Source: an uncultured Pelagibacteraceae bacterium (GTDB lineage Bacteria; Pseudomonadota; Alphaproteobacteria; Pelagibacterales; Pelagibacteraceae). Taken from it: 48,055 nt of DNA. A program made the translations under genes and the position numbers. Numbering within the stretch: position 1 is the first letter of the stretch; each line of letters opens with the position of its first letter. The notes under the pieces were generated by a model. That model was not told the origin of the DNA. It saw only the letters and a list, made by a program, of their open reading frames with translations, and searched no databases. The stretch is taken from assembly GCA_902634695.1 (NCBI GenBank), contig CACPLE010000004.1, positions 1-48,055 of the forward strand. The letters run 5' to 3'. Shown piece after piece: positions 9,703-19,569 of this stretch.

Positions 9703-10506
9703 ATGAATATATCTCCAATTAGTTTGGCTTTTAAAAAAACAAAAAAACAAAAAAGACCCGCTTTATTGACTTATACCGTTGCAGGAGACAATACCAAAAA
9801 AAAATCTCTAGAAATATTAAATTCTATTTCAAAATATGTTGATATATGTGAATTAGGTTTTCCTCACAATACACCGATTGGTGATGGAGGACAAATTCAA
9901 ACATCTTCTTATCGTGCAATTAATAATGGAATAAAAATGAAAGATATTTTTGAAATTGTCAGAAGTTACAAAAAAAATAAAAATTCAAAACCTTTAATTT
10001 TAATGGGGTATTACAACATGGTTTACCAATATGGTGAAAATAATTTTTTAAACAAATGCAAAAAAGTTGGAGTAAATGGTTTGATAGTTGTTGATTTGCC
10101 TTGGCCTGATAACAAAATTTTTGCAAAAAAATGCAAAAAAAAAAATATCACTTTTGTACAACTTTTATCTCCAACTACATCAAAAAAAAGAATAAAAATG
10201 ATTATTAATGACTCACATGATATGATCTATTATATAAGTATGCTATCAACCACGGGCGGCAAACTTAAAGTTTCTCCAAAAAAAATTTTGAATAACTACA
10301 ATGTTATAAAAAAGATCAGCAAATTAAAAAATGTTGTAATTGGATTTGGAATAACAGAAAAAACTATTTCATCTCTTAAAAAAGCTGATGGATTGGTTGT
10401 AGGAAGTGCATTATGTAAGAAAATTTCAGAATCTATAAAAAAAAGACAAAATCCTGTCACAAATGTTGTTAGTATAGTATTAAAATTAAAAAATAAAATA
10501 TCATGA
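9703..10506 (+). CDS. trpA: Tryptophan synthase alpha chain (divergent)
   Basis: ICELGFPHNTPIGDGGQIQ (E and D catalytic positions kept), STTGGK, VIGFGI, VVGSAL. Confidence 0.87.
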   Translation: MNISPISLAFKKTKKQKRPALLTYTVAGDNTKKKSLEILNSISKYVDICELGFPHNTPIGDGGQIQTSSYRAINNGIKMKDIFEIVRSYKKNKNSKPLILMGYYNMVYQYGENNFLNKCKKVGVNGLIVVDLPWPDNKIFAKKCKKKNITFVQLLSPTTSKKRIKMIINDSHDMIYYISMLSTTGGKLKVSPKKILNNYNVIKKISKLKNVVIGFGITEKTISSLKKADGLVVGSALCKKISESIKKRQNPVTNVVSIVLKLKNKIS

Positions 10507-16222: not shown

Positions 16223-16911
16223 TTTTTCGAAAAAATTTTAATAAGACTTTTTATATTTTGTTTATTTAAACTTTTTTTTGAAATCATCAAACATGCTTGT
16301 GATTTTAAAATTTCTCCATCTTTTAGAATCCTTAAATTATTAGCCTTTAATGTGGCTCCTGTGCTTGTTATATCTGATATAATTTCTGCAGTTCCTGTAA
16401 ATGGAGCTACCTCGGTGCTTCCTAAACTTTGAACTAATTGAAATTGAGTTACTCCCTTAGAATACAAAAATTGTCTGGTTAAATTTGGATATTTTGTTGC
16501 TACCCTTAATAGTCTTTTTTTCTTTTTTTTGAATTCGTCTGCAACTTCATCTAAATCTAACAATGTTTGAACATCTATCCACAAATCTGGAATGGCTAAC
16601 ACTAGATTTGCATTACCAAAATCATATTTTTTACTAATTAAAATTTTTTTTTGTATATTGATTTCACTTTCTTTAAACAAGTCATATCCTGAAAAACCAA
16701 TATCAATATTCCCTAATGACAACTGCTCAATGCATTCCCTTGCGTGCAAATAAATAATCTTAACATTGGCAAGTTTTTTAATATATCCAAATAAATCTCT
16801 TTCTCCTCTTTCAGAATAAATATTTAATTTATTCTTTTTAAATATATTAATTGTATCATGCTTTAATCTCCCTTTAGATGGAAGTCCGATGTTAATAATA
16901 TTTTTAATCAT
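16219..16911 (-). CDS. hisG: ATP phosphoribosyltransferase, short (HisZ-dependent) form
   Basis: GLPSKGRL start, DIGFSGYDL, DITSTGATLKANNLRIL; 230 aa; hisZ adjacent. Confidence 0.92.
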   Translation of the reverse strand: MIKNIINIGLPSKGRLKHDTINIFKKNKLNIYSERGERDLFGYIKKLANVKIIYLHARECIEQLSLGNIDIGFSGYDLFKESEINIQKKILISKKYDFGNANLVLAIPDLWIDVQTLLDLDEVADEFKKKKKRLLRVATKYPNLTRQFLYSKGVTQFQLVQSLGSTEVAPFTGTAEIISDITSTGATLKANNLRILKDGEILKSQACLMISKKSLNKQNIKSLIKIFSKK

Positions 16912-17959
16912 ATAAATTCATATTTACAGCTGCACCTACTGCAGAAACTTTTCTAAATCCTAAATTATTAGTTAGCTGATCATATCTTCCGCCTGATATG
17001 AAATTTTTAAATTTTGATTTTATTTTAACTTCTATAGAAAAAATCATTGAACTATAAAATTCAACTTCTCTACCATTTGAAGCGGTGAATTTTATTTTTA
17101 AATTTTTATCATTACTTCTTCCTAAAGGAAAAAAACCTTTTCCGACTATTATATTAATTTTATTTTTTTTAAAAAATGAATTTAAAACTTGAGGTGCTTT
17201 TTCTAAGGGACATTTTATTTTTAAAAATTGCTTTATAATATTTGTATTTTTTTTACCAGTTGAAGATTTTCTTGGATCTTTAATCTTCATATTAAATCTA
17301 TCTAATACTTCCTTGTAAGTTCTAGAAGCAATAATTTTATTTTGGTTTTGTTTTTGCATTTTTTGATATCTATACTTATCTGTTTCAACAAATACTGGAT
17401 CTATGTCCGAATTTGTTTCTAGTCTTTTTAATAATTCATTGAAATAATTTTCATTCCAATAGTATCTTTTAAGTCTATTTTTCCATCTTCTGGGAATATC
17501 TAATTTGTCAATTAACAAATTGAACAATTCAACATTCCCAATTTTTAAAATAGATTTTTTAAAACCACTATTTTTTAAAACTTTTAATGACGTATCTATA
17601 ATCTCCTTATCATCTTTCTGTTTATTTTTAGATCCCAAAATTTCATAACCAATTTGATTTTTTATAATGCTGTCTTTTTTTTGATAAGTTTTTCTAAATG
17701 CTTCACCACTATAAAAAACTTTTTCTCTACTATCTTTTTTATTTTGAATAAATCTTATTACTGAAGAGATCGTCAAATCTGGTCTTAAACAAAGTTCTTT
17801 ACCGTTTAAATCATAAAATGAAAATAAAAATTTCTTAAAATTCTCACCAGATCTTTGAAGAATATATTTGGTCTCAAGAACTGGATCTAAAGTAATATTG
17901 TTAAAACCCCTAGATTTAATTGATCTAAGGATTTTTTCAGATAATTTTTTTGATTTCAT
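16904..17959 (-). CDS. hisZ: ATP phosphoribosyltransferase regulatory subunit
   Basis: HisRS-like class II fold text (LRPDLTISSVIRF, ISGGRYDQLTNNLG) between hisS and hisG. Confidence 0.88.
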   Translation of the reverse strand: MKSKKLSEKILRSIKSRGFNNITLDPVLETKYILQRSGENFKKFLFSFYDLNGKELCLRPDLTISSVIRFIQNKKDSREKVFYSGEAFRKTYQKKDSIIKNQIGYEILGSKNKQKDDKEIIDTSLKVLKNSGFKKSILKIGNVELFNLLIDKLDIPRRWKNRLKRYYWNENYFNELLKRLETNSDIDPVFVETDKYRYQKMQKQNQNKIIASRTYKEVLDRFNMKIKDPRKSSTGKKNTNIIKQFLKIKCPLEKAPQVLNSFFKKNKINIIVGKGFFPLGRSNDKNLKIKFTASNGREVEFYSSMIFSIEVKIKSKFKNFISGGRYDQLTNNLGFRKVSAVGAAVNMNLYD

Positions 17960-19328
17960 CTATTAGACTTTCTTCTGAAACAGTTTTTTGATCATTTTCT
18001 TTTGAAGACTTGAGATTTTTTAAAGTAAATTTATTTTCTTTAATTTCAGATTCTCCAACTATAATCGCAACTGGACAACCTTTTTTGTCTGCATAAGTTA
18101 GTTGTTTTTTTAAATTTTTTGATGAGTCTAAATATACTTCTGAGTTTATTCCATTTTCTCTTAAATAATCTAAAGTTTCATTATATTTTTTTAAATATTT
18201 ACTATCTAAAATACAAATAAGAACCGGTTCATTATTTTTTGGTTTAATTGAACCAATTTGATTTAAAACAAATAACAACCTATCTACACCAATACTCATT
18301 CCTGTTCCTGGAAAGTCAGCACCTTTAAACCTAGATATAAGTTTGTCATAACGACCCCCGGACGCAATACTTCCAATATCTACTTCTTTTCCTTTTGGAT
18401 TTTTAACCTTAAAATTAAGATTAGTTTCTACACAAAAACCATCATAATAAGCAAGACCACGCACTATTGTAAAATTTGGTTGAATTAATTTAGTATACTT
18501 TCCATAACTTACGATTTCCAAAAGATCTTCTGTTTCCTTAATTCCTTCAGTAGATAAAGAGTTTTTTAAAATAGACTTTAAATCTTTAAGATTTTTTATT
18601 TTTAAAAAATCTAAAATTTCTGATGCTTGAGCGTCAGATAAATTAGCACCTTTTGTAACTGCTCCCGATGAATCTGTTCTTTCTTTTTTAAGTAAATCTT
18701 CTACACCTTTTAATCCAATTCTATCTAACTTATCGATAGCTCTAATTACTTTTAATTCTTGAACCTTATCATTAATCTTTAACTGATTAATCAATCCTTG
18801 GACTATTTTTCTATTACTTATATTTACTCTAAATTCTTTTTCACTCAGTCCACATTTTAGCAAAGTGTCAGCAATAGTATTGCAAATTTCAGAGTCTGCC
18901 TGGCTTTTGTTTACATTCCCAATAATATCAACATCGGCTTGGGTAAACTCACGATATCTTGCATTTCCACTTTTTTCATTTCTCCAAACATTTCCTATTG
19001 CATATCTTTTGTAAGGAAAAGGAAGTTCTCTATAGTTTTGAGCGACAAATCTACTTAAAGGGCTGCTTAAATCATATCTAAGAGTTATCGTCTCGTTATC
19101 ATCATTAAATGTAAATACACCAGACATAGAATTATCTTCATCGTCTGCCAAAAACGATCCTATGTTTTTACTAATTTCAAAAGATGGTGTTTCTAAAGGG
19201 TCAAAACCAAACTTTAAAAAATTATTTTCAATTATCTCAATTAATTTCTTTTTTAATGATAATTGTTTATTCCATCTATCTTCAAAACCTGAAGGTAGTC
19301 CAGGTGTTAATTTTTCATCTTTTTTCAT
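17937..19328 (-). CDS. hisS: Histidyl-tRNA synthetase (start corrected to 19328; the ORF track runs into tRNA-His)
   Basis: GFEDRW, TLRYDLSSPLSRFVA, WRNEKSGNARYREFTQADVDIIG, GLAYYDGFCVE, ASGGRYDKL. Confidence 0.93.
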   Translation of the reverse strand: MKKDEKLTPGLPSGFEDRWNKQLSLKKKLIEIIENNFLKFGFDPLETPSFEISKNIGSFLADDEDNSMSGVFTFNDDNETITLRYDLSSPLSRFVAQNYRELPFPYKRYAIGNVWRNEKSGNARYREFTQADVDIIGNVNKSQADSEICNTIADTLLKCGLSEKEFRVNISNRKIVQGLINQLKINDKVQELKVIRAIDKLDRIGLKGVEDLLKKERTDSSGAVTKGANLSDAQASEILDFLKIKNLKDLKSILKNSLSTEGIKETEDLLEIVSYGKYTKLIQPNFTIVRGLAYYDGFCVETNLNFKVKNPKGKEVDIGSIASGGRYDKLISRFKGADFPGTGMSIGVDRLLFVLNQIGSIKPKNNEPVLICILDSKYLKKYNETLDYLRENGINSEVYLDSSKNLKKQLTYADKKGCPVAIIVGESEIKENKFTLKNLKSSKENDQKTVSEESLIDEIKKII

Positions 19329-19332
19329 TTTT

Positions 19333-19407
19333 TGGTACCGCCTCTTGGAATTGAACCAAGATTGAGAGTTCCACAAACTCCAGGATTAACCATTATCCGA
19401 AGGCGGC
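19333..19407 (-). tRNA. tRNA-His(GTG), CCA encoded
   Basis: Reverse complement GCCGCCTTCGGATAATGGTTAATCCTGGAGTTTGTGGAACTCTCAATCTTGGTTCAATTCCAAGAGGCGGTACCA; anticodon loop TTGTGGA; cloverleaf drawn by eye. Confidence 0.93.
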
Positions 19408-19459
19408 ATCCTTCCTTTATTTTATACTAATTATTATTAATTTTAAATTTATAAAATGA

Positions 19460-19534
19460 TTAAATTGCTAGCGTGCAGCCAGCATGAAAATGATGTCTGT
19501 GTGAATTCCTTAATACTTTAATCTTTTTAATCAT
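19460..19534 (-). CDS. Candidate His-rich leader peptide MIKKIKVLRNSHRHHFHAGCTLAI upstream of tRNA-His-hisS-hisZ-hisG
   Basis: 24-codon ORF with 4 His in 6 codons (CAC AGA CAT CAT TTT CAT), in an otherwise AT-rich intergenic gap. Confidence 0.45.
   Translation of the reverse strand: MIKKIKVLRNSHRHHFHAGCTLAI
19466..19484 (-). promoter_or_regulatory. Hairpin overlapping the end of the candidate leader ORF
   Basis: Reverse strand TGCTGGC-TGCAC-GCTAGCA (one G-U pair). Confidence 0.4.
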
Positions 19535-19541
19535 TGCGATT

Positions 19542-19569
19542 TAGATAACACTTATTTTTATAAAAACAA
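19542..19569 (-). promoter_or_regulatory. Possible promoter for leader/tRNA-His/hisS transcript
   Basis: TTGTTT-N16-TATCTA on minus strand, 7 nt before ATG at 19534; weak consensus in an AT-rich background. Confidence 0.25.

Follow-up and report, generated by a model that had tools for sequence, protein, structure and literature searches.

A candidate histidine leader peptide ahead of the tRNA-His, hisS, hisZ and hisG genes of SAR11 bacteria

The genomes of SAR11 bacteria are streamlined and encode few transcription factors. For the question of how such cells tune their amino-acid supply and the charging of their tRNAs, a short His-rich open reading frame (ORF) offers a concrete candidate answer. 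The window considered here is a stretch of 48,055 nucleotides from an uncultured Pelagibacteraceae bacterium (contig CACPLE010000004.1), in which a gap of approximately 235 nt between cspA and tRNA-His carries the ORF on the minus strand. The ORF is located directly 5' of tRNA-His, hisS, hisZ, and hisG, while cspA, infA, and hisD lie upstream of it on the same strand. A His-rich short ORF thus stands ahead of matching biosynthesis and charging genes, one of the general marks of leader-peptide attenuators. The original prediction, made from the window alone, took the encoded peptide for a sensor of charged tRNA-His that controls the downstream genes; the ORF sequence, coordinates, codons, hairpin, and promoter motif that it reported are all as it described them. 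Its gene order, tRNA-His-hisS-hisZ-hisG, also holds: the tRNA is called by ARAGORN, hisS and hisG pass their curated NCBIfam cut-offs, and hisZ scores below its own cut-off, yet the model concerned is its best and a full-length match. The genes and the leader ORF are as follows.

19333..19407, minus strand: tRNA-His (GTG), by ARAGORN and Rfam
17937..19328, minus strand: hisS, TIGR00442, 347.6 bits against a cut-off of 286.75
16904..17959, minus strand: hisZ (ATP phosphoribosyltransferase regulatory subunit), NF008953, 283 bits against a cut-off of 384; PF13393
16219..16911, minus strand: hisG (ATP phosphoribosyltransferase), TIGR00070, 176 bits against a cut-off of 75.75
19460..19534, minus strand: leader ORF of 24 codons, MIKKIKVLRNSHRHHFHAGCTLAI, predicted to be probably leaderless and kept across relatives
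19534-19532 and 19462-19460, minus strand: ATG and stop codon TAA of the leader ORF, read from the sequence
19484..19501, minus strand: His-codon block CAC AGA CAT CAT TTT CAT (HRHHFH), identified with in-frame CAN counts in relatives
19501-19499, 19495-19490, and 19486-19484, minus strand: individual His codons of the leader ORF

An ATG ORF with at least four His codons is rarely found in dinucleotide shuffles of the gap (p=0.0002). A second ORF of 12-45 codons with four His codons occurs in the window at 9904, and because its His content is equal, the evidence from one genome is only suggestive. The comparison between species is decisive, and on that comparison the leader ORF is not a product of chance. 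The hisS gene was searched in 147 Pelagibacteraceae genomes and upstream regions were extracted from 90 loci, 87 of which were usable (two short contig ends and one locus without an ARAGORN tRNA call were left out). Each of these 87 Pelagibacteraceae (SAR11) regions, which represent at least eight genera, has between the upstream gene and tRNA-His a short ORF that begins with ATG and contains 2-6 His codons. An equivalent ORF is found in 80/80 loci of a second set with organism names, nearly all of them Pelagibacteraceae or Pelagibacter with a HisS identity of 66-91%; this set partly overlaps the 87. In the sister family, where no tRNA-His stands in front of hisS, 30/30 loci carry an ORF of only 11 aa that fits M[I/F]xxxHHHxHI, apart from single departures, and a hairpin comes after it. 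The recurrence of the ORF that the original prediction called for is therefore complete, as no homologous region in any of the three sets is without it. The upstream neighbour varies, being cspA in some genera and a tRNA-Phe gene in others, and since the leader is kept with hisS despite these changes, it follows hisS. Upstream of hisS in 30 loci of other alphaproteobacterial families, a small sample, scattered His-containing ORFs occur, none of them like the leader. No short ORF with at least two His codons precedes hisB in 30/30 loci, and no leader was seen by eye upstream of ilvB.

The leader peptide ranges from 11 to 38 aa in length, and its N-terminal part and C-terminus vary freely between relatives. 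The longest leaders, of 33-38 codons, belong to a sub-clade (L003-L005, L007, and L019) and to similar named loci such as L215 and L217; this sub-clade has an extra internal hairpin, CUUUAAGA..UCUUAAAG, instead of the helix P1 described below.

The codons themselves indicate what is being conserved. In-frame CAN codons upstream of the hairpin in the 87 ORFs comprise 148 CAT, 139 CAC, 10 CAA, and 2 CAG, that is, 287 His codons against 12 Gln codons, and the out-of-frame triplets of the same ORFs have no such CAT/CAC bias. In three clades, the mean BLOSUM score of differing codons exceeds that of a column-shuffled null (p=0.009, <0.001, and 0.015), these conservative differences being confined to the leader's frame, and in two of the three the changes fall mainly at third codon positions. 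Among close relatives of the window the same codon-level test does not reach significance (p=0.18), since there is hardly any constraint on the N-terminal half; the conserved part there is the His block, and the evidence consists of this block together with the open frame. These sequence patterns indicate that the leader is translated, with its CAT and CAC codons read as histidine. The proposed conservation of His at the amino-acid level thus stands across relatives, although not at every residue: single His codons are lost in L210, L211, and L212, the first being replaced by Asn in L210 and L212.

The end of the ORF is tied to RNA structure. The hairpin of the original prediction (P2) and a second helix (P1) have the following positions in the window.

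19466..19484, minus strand: hairpin P2, TGCTGGC-TGCAC-GCTAGCA, whose first base is the third position of the final His codon
19526..19535, minus strand: P1 5' strand AATGATTAAA, which includes the start codon, by permutation test and fold
19455..19464, minus strand: P1 3' strand TTTAATCATT, which includes the stop codon, by permutation test and fold

P2 is present in 167/167 regions of the combined, overlapping sets, in 53 distinct sequence variants. Covariation, named earlier as a check on the hairpin, is borne out by compensatory changes such as GCTGGC/GCTAGC, GCAAGC/GCTTGC, ATAGCC/GGCTAT, and ACGGCT/AGCCGT. P2 overlaps or directly abuts the last His codon in 87/87 regions, as against 0.4% of shuffles of the 39 nt that follow that codon. 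In P1, the first codons of the leader pair with the sequence directly 3' of P2 in about half of the lineages. A helix of at least 8 bp is found in 52% of 27 representatives, whereas swapping the partners gives 21% (permutation p=0.0002); the signal is strongest between the ORF start and the stretch just past P2 and drops to 0-7% when either segment is shifted. P1 has 8-10 bp and a quite different sequence from lineage to lineage. As a universal feature it was rejected, being missing in about half of the representatives and in particular from one large clade. Both P1 and the constant abutment of P2 on the last His codon had escaped the original prediction. The single strand of the whole leader folds with z=-7.0 in one lineage and -6.5 in another, and the 81-nt leader of the window folds as P1 plus P2 with a modest z=-1.7. 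Some lineages have a further, small hairpin whose loop holds a His codon (CACUCU-CAC-AGAGUG or CAUUCU-CAC-AGAAUG). P1 and P2 overlap the leader ORF and its stop codon. The stop falls within P2, in the loop or the 3' arm, in 14/87 regions; it is 0-7 nt past P2 in 73/87, and just 5' of P2 in the sister family. This geometry suggests that folding of P1 and P2 would depend on the position of the ribosome. In the sister-family leaders (L121-L129 and L141-L170), a conserved ACAACCCCCU-type stretch lies right 3' of P2, and several of these loci have a hairpin ahead of the hisS start.

The start of the transcript is constrained by a promoter-like element ahead of the leader.

19542..19569, minus strand: predicted sigma70-type promoter TTGTTT-N16-TATCTA, about 7 nt 5' of the leader ATG

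A -35-like TTG occurs 24-44 nt ahead of the leader ATG in 86/86 regions; in relatives it is followed, mostly at a spacing of 16 nt, by an AT-rich -10, and the -10 and the ATG are mostly 4-8 nt apart, or about 15 nt in one clade. Because Shine-Dalgarno-like 4-mers precede the leader ATG in 4/87 regions only, the leader mRNA is probably leaderless, with its predicted start at the AUG. The earlier suggestion of a leaderless start fits both the promoter spacing and this scarcity. Between P2 and tRNA-His, a distance of 47-94 nt, a TTG is found in 1/87 regions, so that the sole conserved -35-like TTG, as far as motif positions tell, is the one ahead of the leader and the tRNA-His-hisS transcript likely originates from the leader promoter or from upstream readthrough. 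A TATAAA-like box, unaccompanied by a -35, lies 5' of tRNA-His in most lineages and may act as a weak internal promoter; a sigma70 promoter at this place was rejected as weak at best, on the single TTG and a PWM score below that of shuffles.

Comparison between genomes shows the ORF, its conserved His codons, the placement of the promoter, P2 and the way it is spaced, and, for roughly half of the lineages, P1; regulation, its direction, ribosome stalling, and the output step are inferred. The leader is, with good probability, a cis-acting His-codon leader-peptide attenuator of SAR11. In the proposed mechanism, the transcript would start at or beside the AUG and a 70S ribosome would read the His-rich peptide without a 5' UTR. 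When charged tRNA-His is plentiful, the ribosome would pass the His codons and get to the stop codon, inside P2 or just past it, where it would open P2 and cover the P1 3' strand, so that P2 and any P1 would be blocked meanwhile; in the sister family, a ribosome at the stop would cover the P2 5' arm, with the same logic. Under a shortage of charged tRNA-His, the ribosome would stall at the upstream His codons, mostly at a distance of 9 or 15 nt from the final His, leaving P2 and P1 free to fold ahead of or around it. This stalled and folded state is taken as the ON state, which would yield more tRNA-His/HisRS/HisZ/HisG transcript, since scarcity of charged tRNA-His calls for more tRNA-His, HisRS, and HisZG. 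In most lineages the output step may be termination, either Rho-dependent or AU-rich, or else RNA turnover. Rho is present in 6/6 genomes tested, but in the window's family the stretch from P2 to the tRNA is AU-rich and not C-rich, so that the evidence speaks neither for nor against Rho. A possible but doubtful extension is that the P1 helix, one strand of which is the start codon of the leaderless mRNA, encloses the His codons and P2, in which case one ribosome would set both the re-reading of the leader and the transcription of the operon without an intrinsic terminator. If true, this switch at the start codon would be an attenuation mechanism unlike the classical one, in very abundant ocean bacteria.

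Classical attenuation would assign a different role to P2, namely that of a Rho-independent terminator whose 5' arm is masked when a ribosome stalls at the last His codon; without such a stall, P2 would form and RNA polymerase would halt in an AU-rich tract. The contact between P2 and the last His codon in every sequence speaks for this, because a ribosome stalled there would mask P2, and in one sub-clade (L002, L006, L009, L011, L012, L014, and L015) the sequence following P2 is UUAUUUAU, and the score of P2 is terminator-like. However, the T-score of the P2 tail reaches at least 3 in 7/87 regions and stays below 3 in the other 80, many tails being almost without U (UAAAUCAC and UAAUAGAA, for example), and P2 as a general intrinsic terminator was rejected for most lineages on these scores. 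Those tails that are rich in U coincide with the 3' strands of P1, which accounts for them in another way. Most His codons, moreover, are upstream, where a stall leaves P2 free, and the stop codon is at the 3' foot of P2 in most lineages, so that a fed ribosome would open P2 too. No terminator-like site occurs on the leader strand of the window's gap, nor is the classical arrangement of a Rho-independent terminator hairpin with a U-tract before the first gene present in most regions. The earlier statement that no U-tract terminator is obvious is accordingly true of most lineages. Both parts of this explanation, the masked terminator and the halt in the AU-rich tract, are in our judgement unlikely.

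The ORF might instead encode a functional His-rich micropeptide, metal-binding for example, that is not a sensor of tRNA-His charging, as its His-X-His-His-type motifs and the action in trans that leader peptides may have (peTrpL of Sinorhizobium, PMC7298713) would allow. It is hard to reconcile this with an N-terminus, a length, and a C-terminus that all vary while only the His content and the position relative to P2 are kept, or with an ORF that is always ahead of hisS, and we give it very little credence. Similarly improbable is the view that what is conserved belongs to the tRNA-His transcript, as a structured RNA or as a processing element, the ORF being incidental. Such an element would account for the strong folds of some lineages, the universal P2, and an AU-rich stretch 5' of the tRNA that is strongly conserved within genera, but not for third-position CAT/CAC variation with hardly any CAA or CAG, for the frame-specific constraint in three clades, or for a sister family that retains the His-rich ORF with no tRNA downstream.

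A His-codon attenuator in SAR11 has several relatives among known systems. Like hisL of gammaproteobacteria (Rfam RF00514), it has a short His-rich ORF, overlapped at its end by hairpins, before histidine genes; unlike hisL, it is probably leaderless, has another RNA architecture without a canonical U-tract terminator, and precedes tRNA-His/hisS/hisZ/hisG. The RF00514 covariance model has no match in the window at the gathering threshold or in eight leader loci at E<=1, and in the whole Rfam library neither a T-box riboswitch nor any other family matches the leader in the window or these eight loci. In Bacillus, the available portion of Naville and Gautheret (2010, PMC2965389) describes a His leader peptide upstream of hisZ and the hisS paralogue hisS*, likewise a His-codon ORF in the 5' UTR of hisS-family genes. 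That leader was found by prediction of premature terminators, which would miss most SAR11 cases; the phylum differs, and the same portion reports no tRNA gene in the unit. The trpL attenuator of Sinorhizobium meliloti is leaderless, its RNA starting at the AUG of the leader ORF (PMC7298713, PMC10117765), and is alphaproteobacterial like the SAR11 leader, whose leaderless start is only predicted; trpL reads Trp and belongs to trpE(G), whereas the SAR11 leader reads His. Structured cis-regulatory RNAs of Pelagibacter ubique were surveyed by Meyer et al. (2009, PMC2704228), and the main text of that survey does not mention histidine, hisS, or leader peptides. A literature search without most subscription journals returned no relevant paper on leader peptides of SAR11 or Pelagibacter. 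The best reading is that the kind of system, His leader-peptide attenuation, is known, and that a probably leaderless form, the tRNA gene within the operon, and the usual lack of a U-tract terminator set the SAR11 case apart. A leader mostly without a terminator may explain its absence from terminator-based attenuator surveys. If the assignment is true, a universal, translation-read histidine sensor would act at the tRNA-His/HisRS/HisZ/HisG operon of regulator-poor cells, and a tRNA gene and its own synthetase would be governed by a leader peptide that reads the same tRNA.

Some minor observations concern the sequence beyond the leader. A DnaA-box-like TTWTNCACA lies between P2 and tRNA-His in L017, L018, L020-L023, L209, L210, L212, and L257 and is not present in the window; DnaA-dependent attenuation has been proposed for the E. 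coli his operon (PMC10989985, available portion). At the tRNA-His/hisS junction (19326-19335), the hisS ATG of the window is 4 nt past the CCA end of the tRNA, and the hisS start is 4-5 nt past CCA in 20/21 loci measured. This spacing leaves no space for a Shine-Dalgarno site of hisS, and the hisS mRNA would be leaderless once tRNA-His is trimmed off. The ilvB mRNA is probably leaderless too, as many of the Pelagibacteraceae ilvB loci (L171-L198) have, by eye, a TTGACC-17-TAGATT-like promoter a few nt before the ATG.
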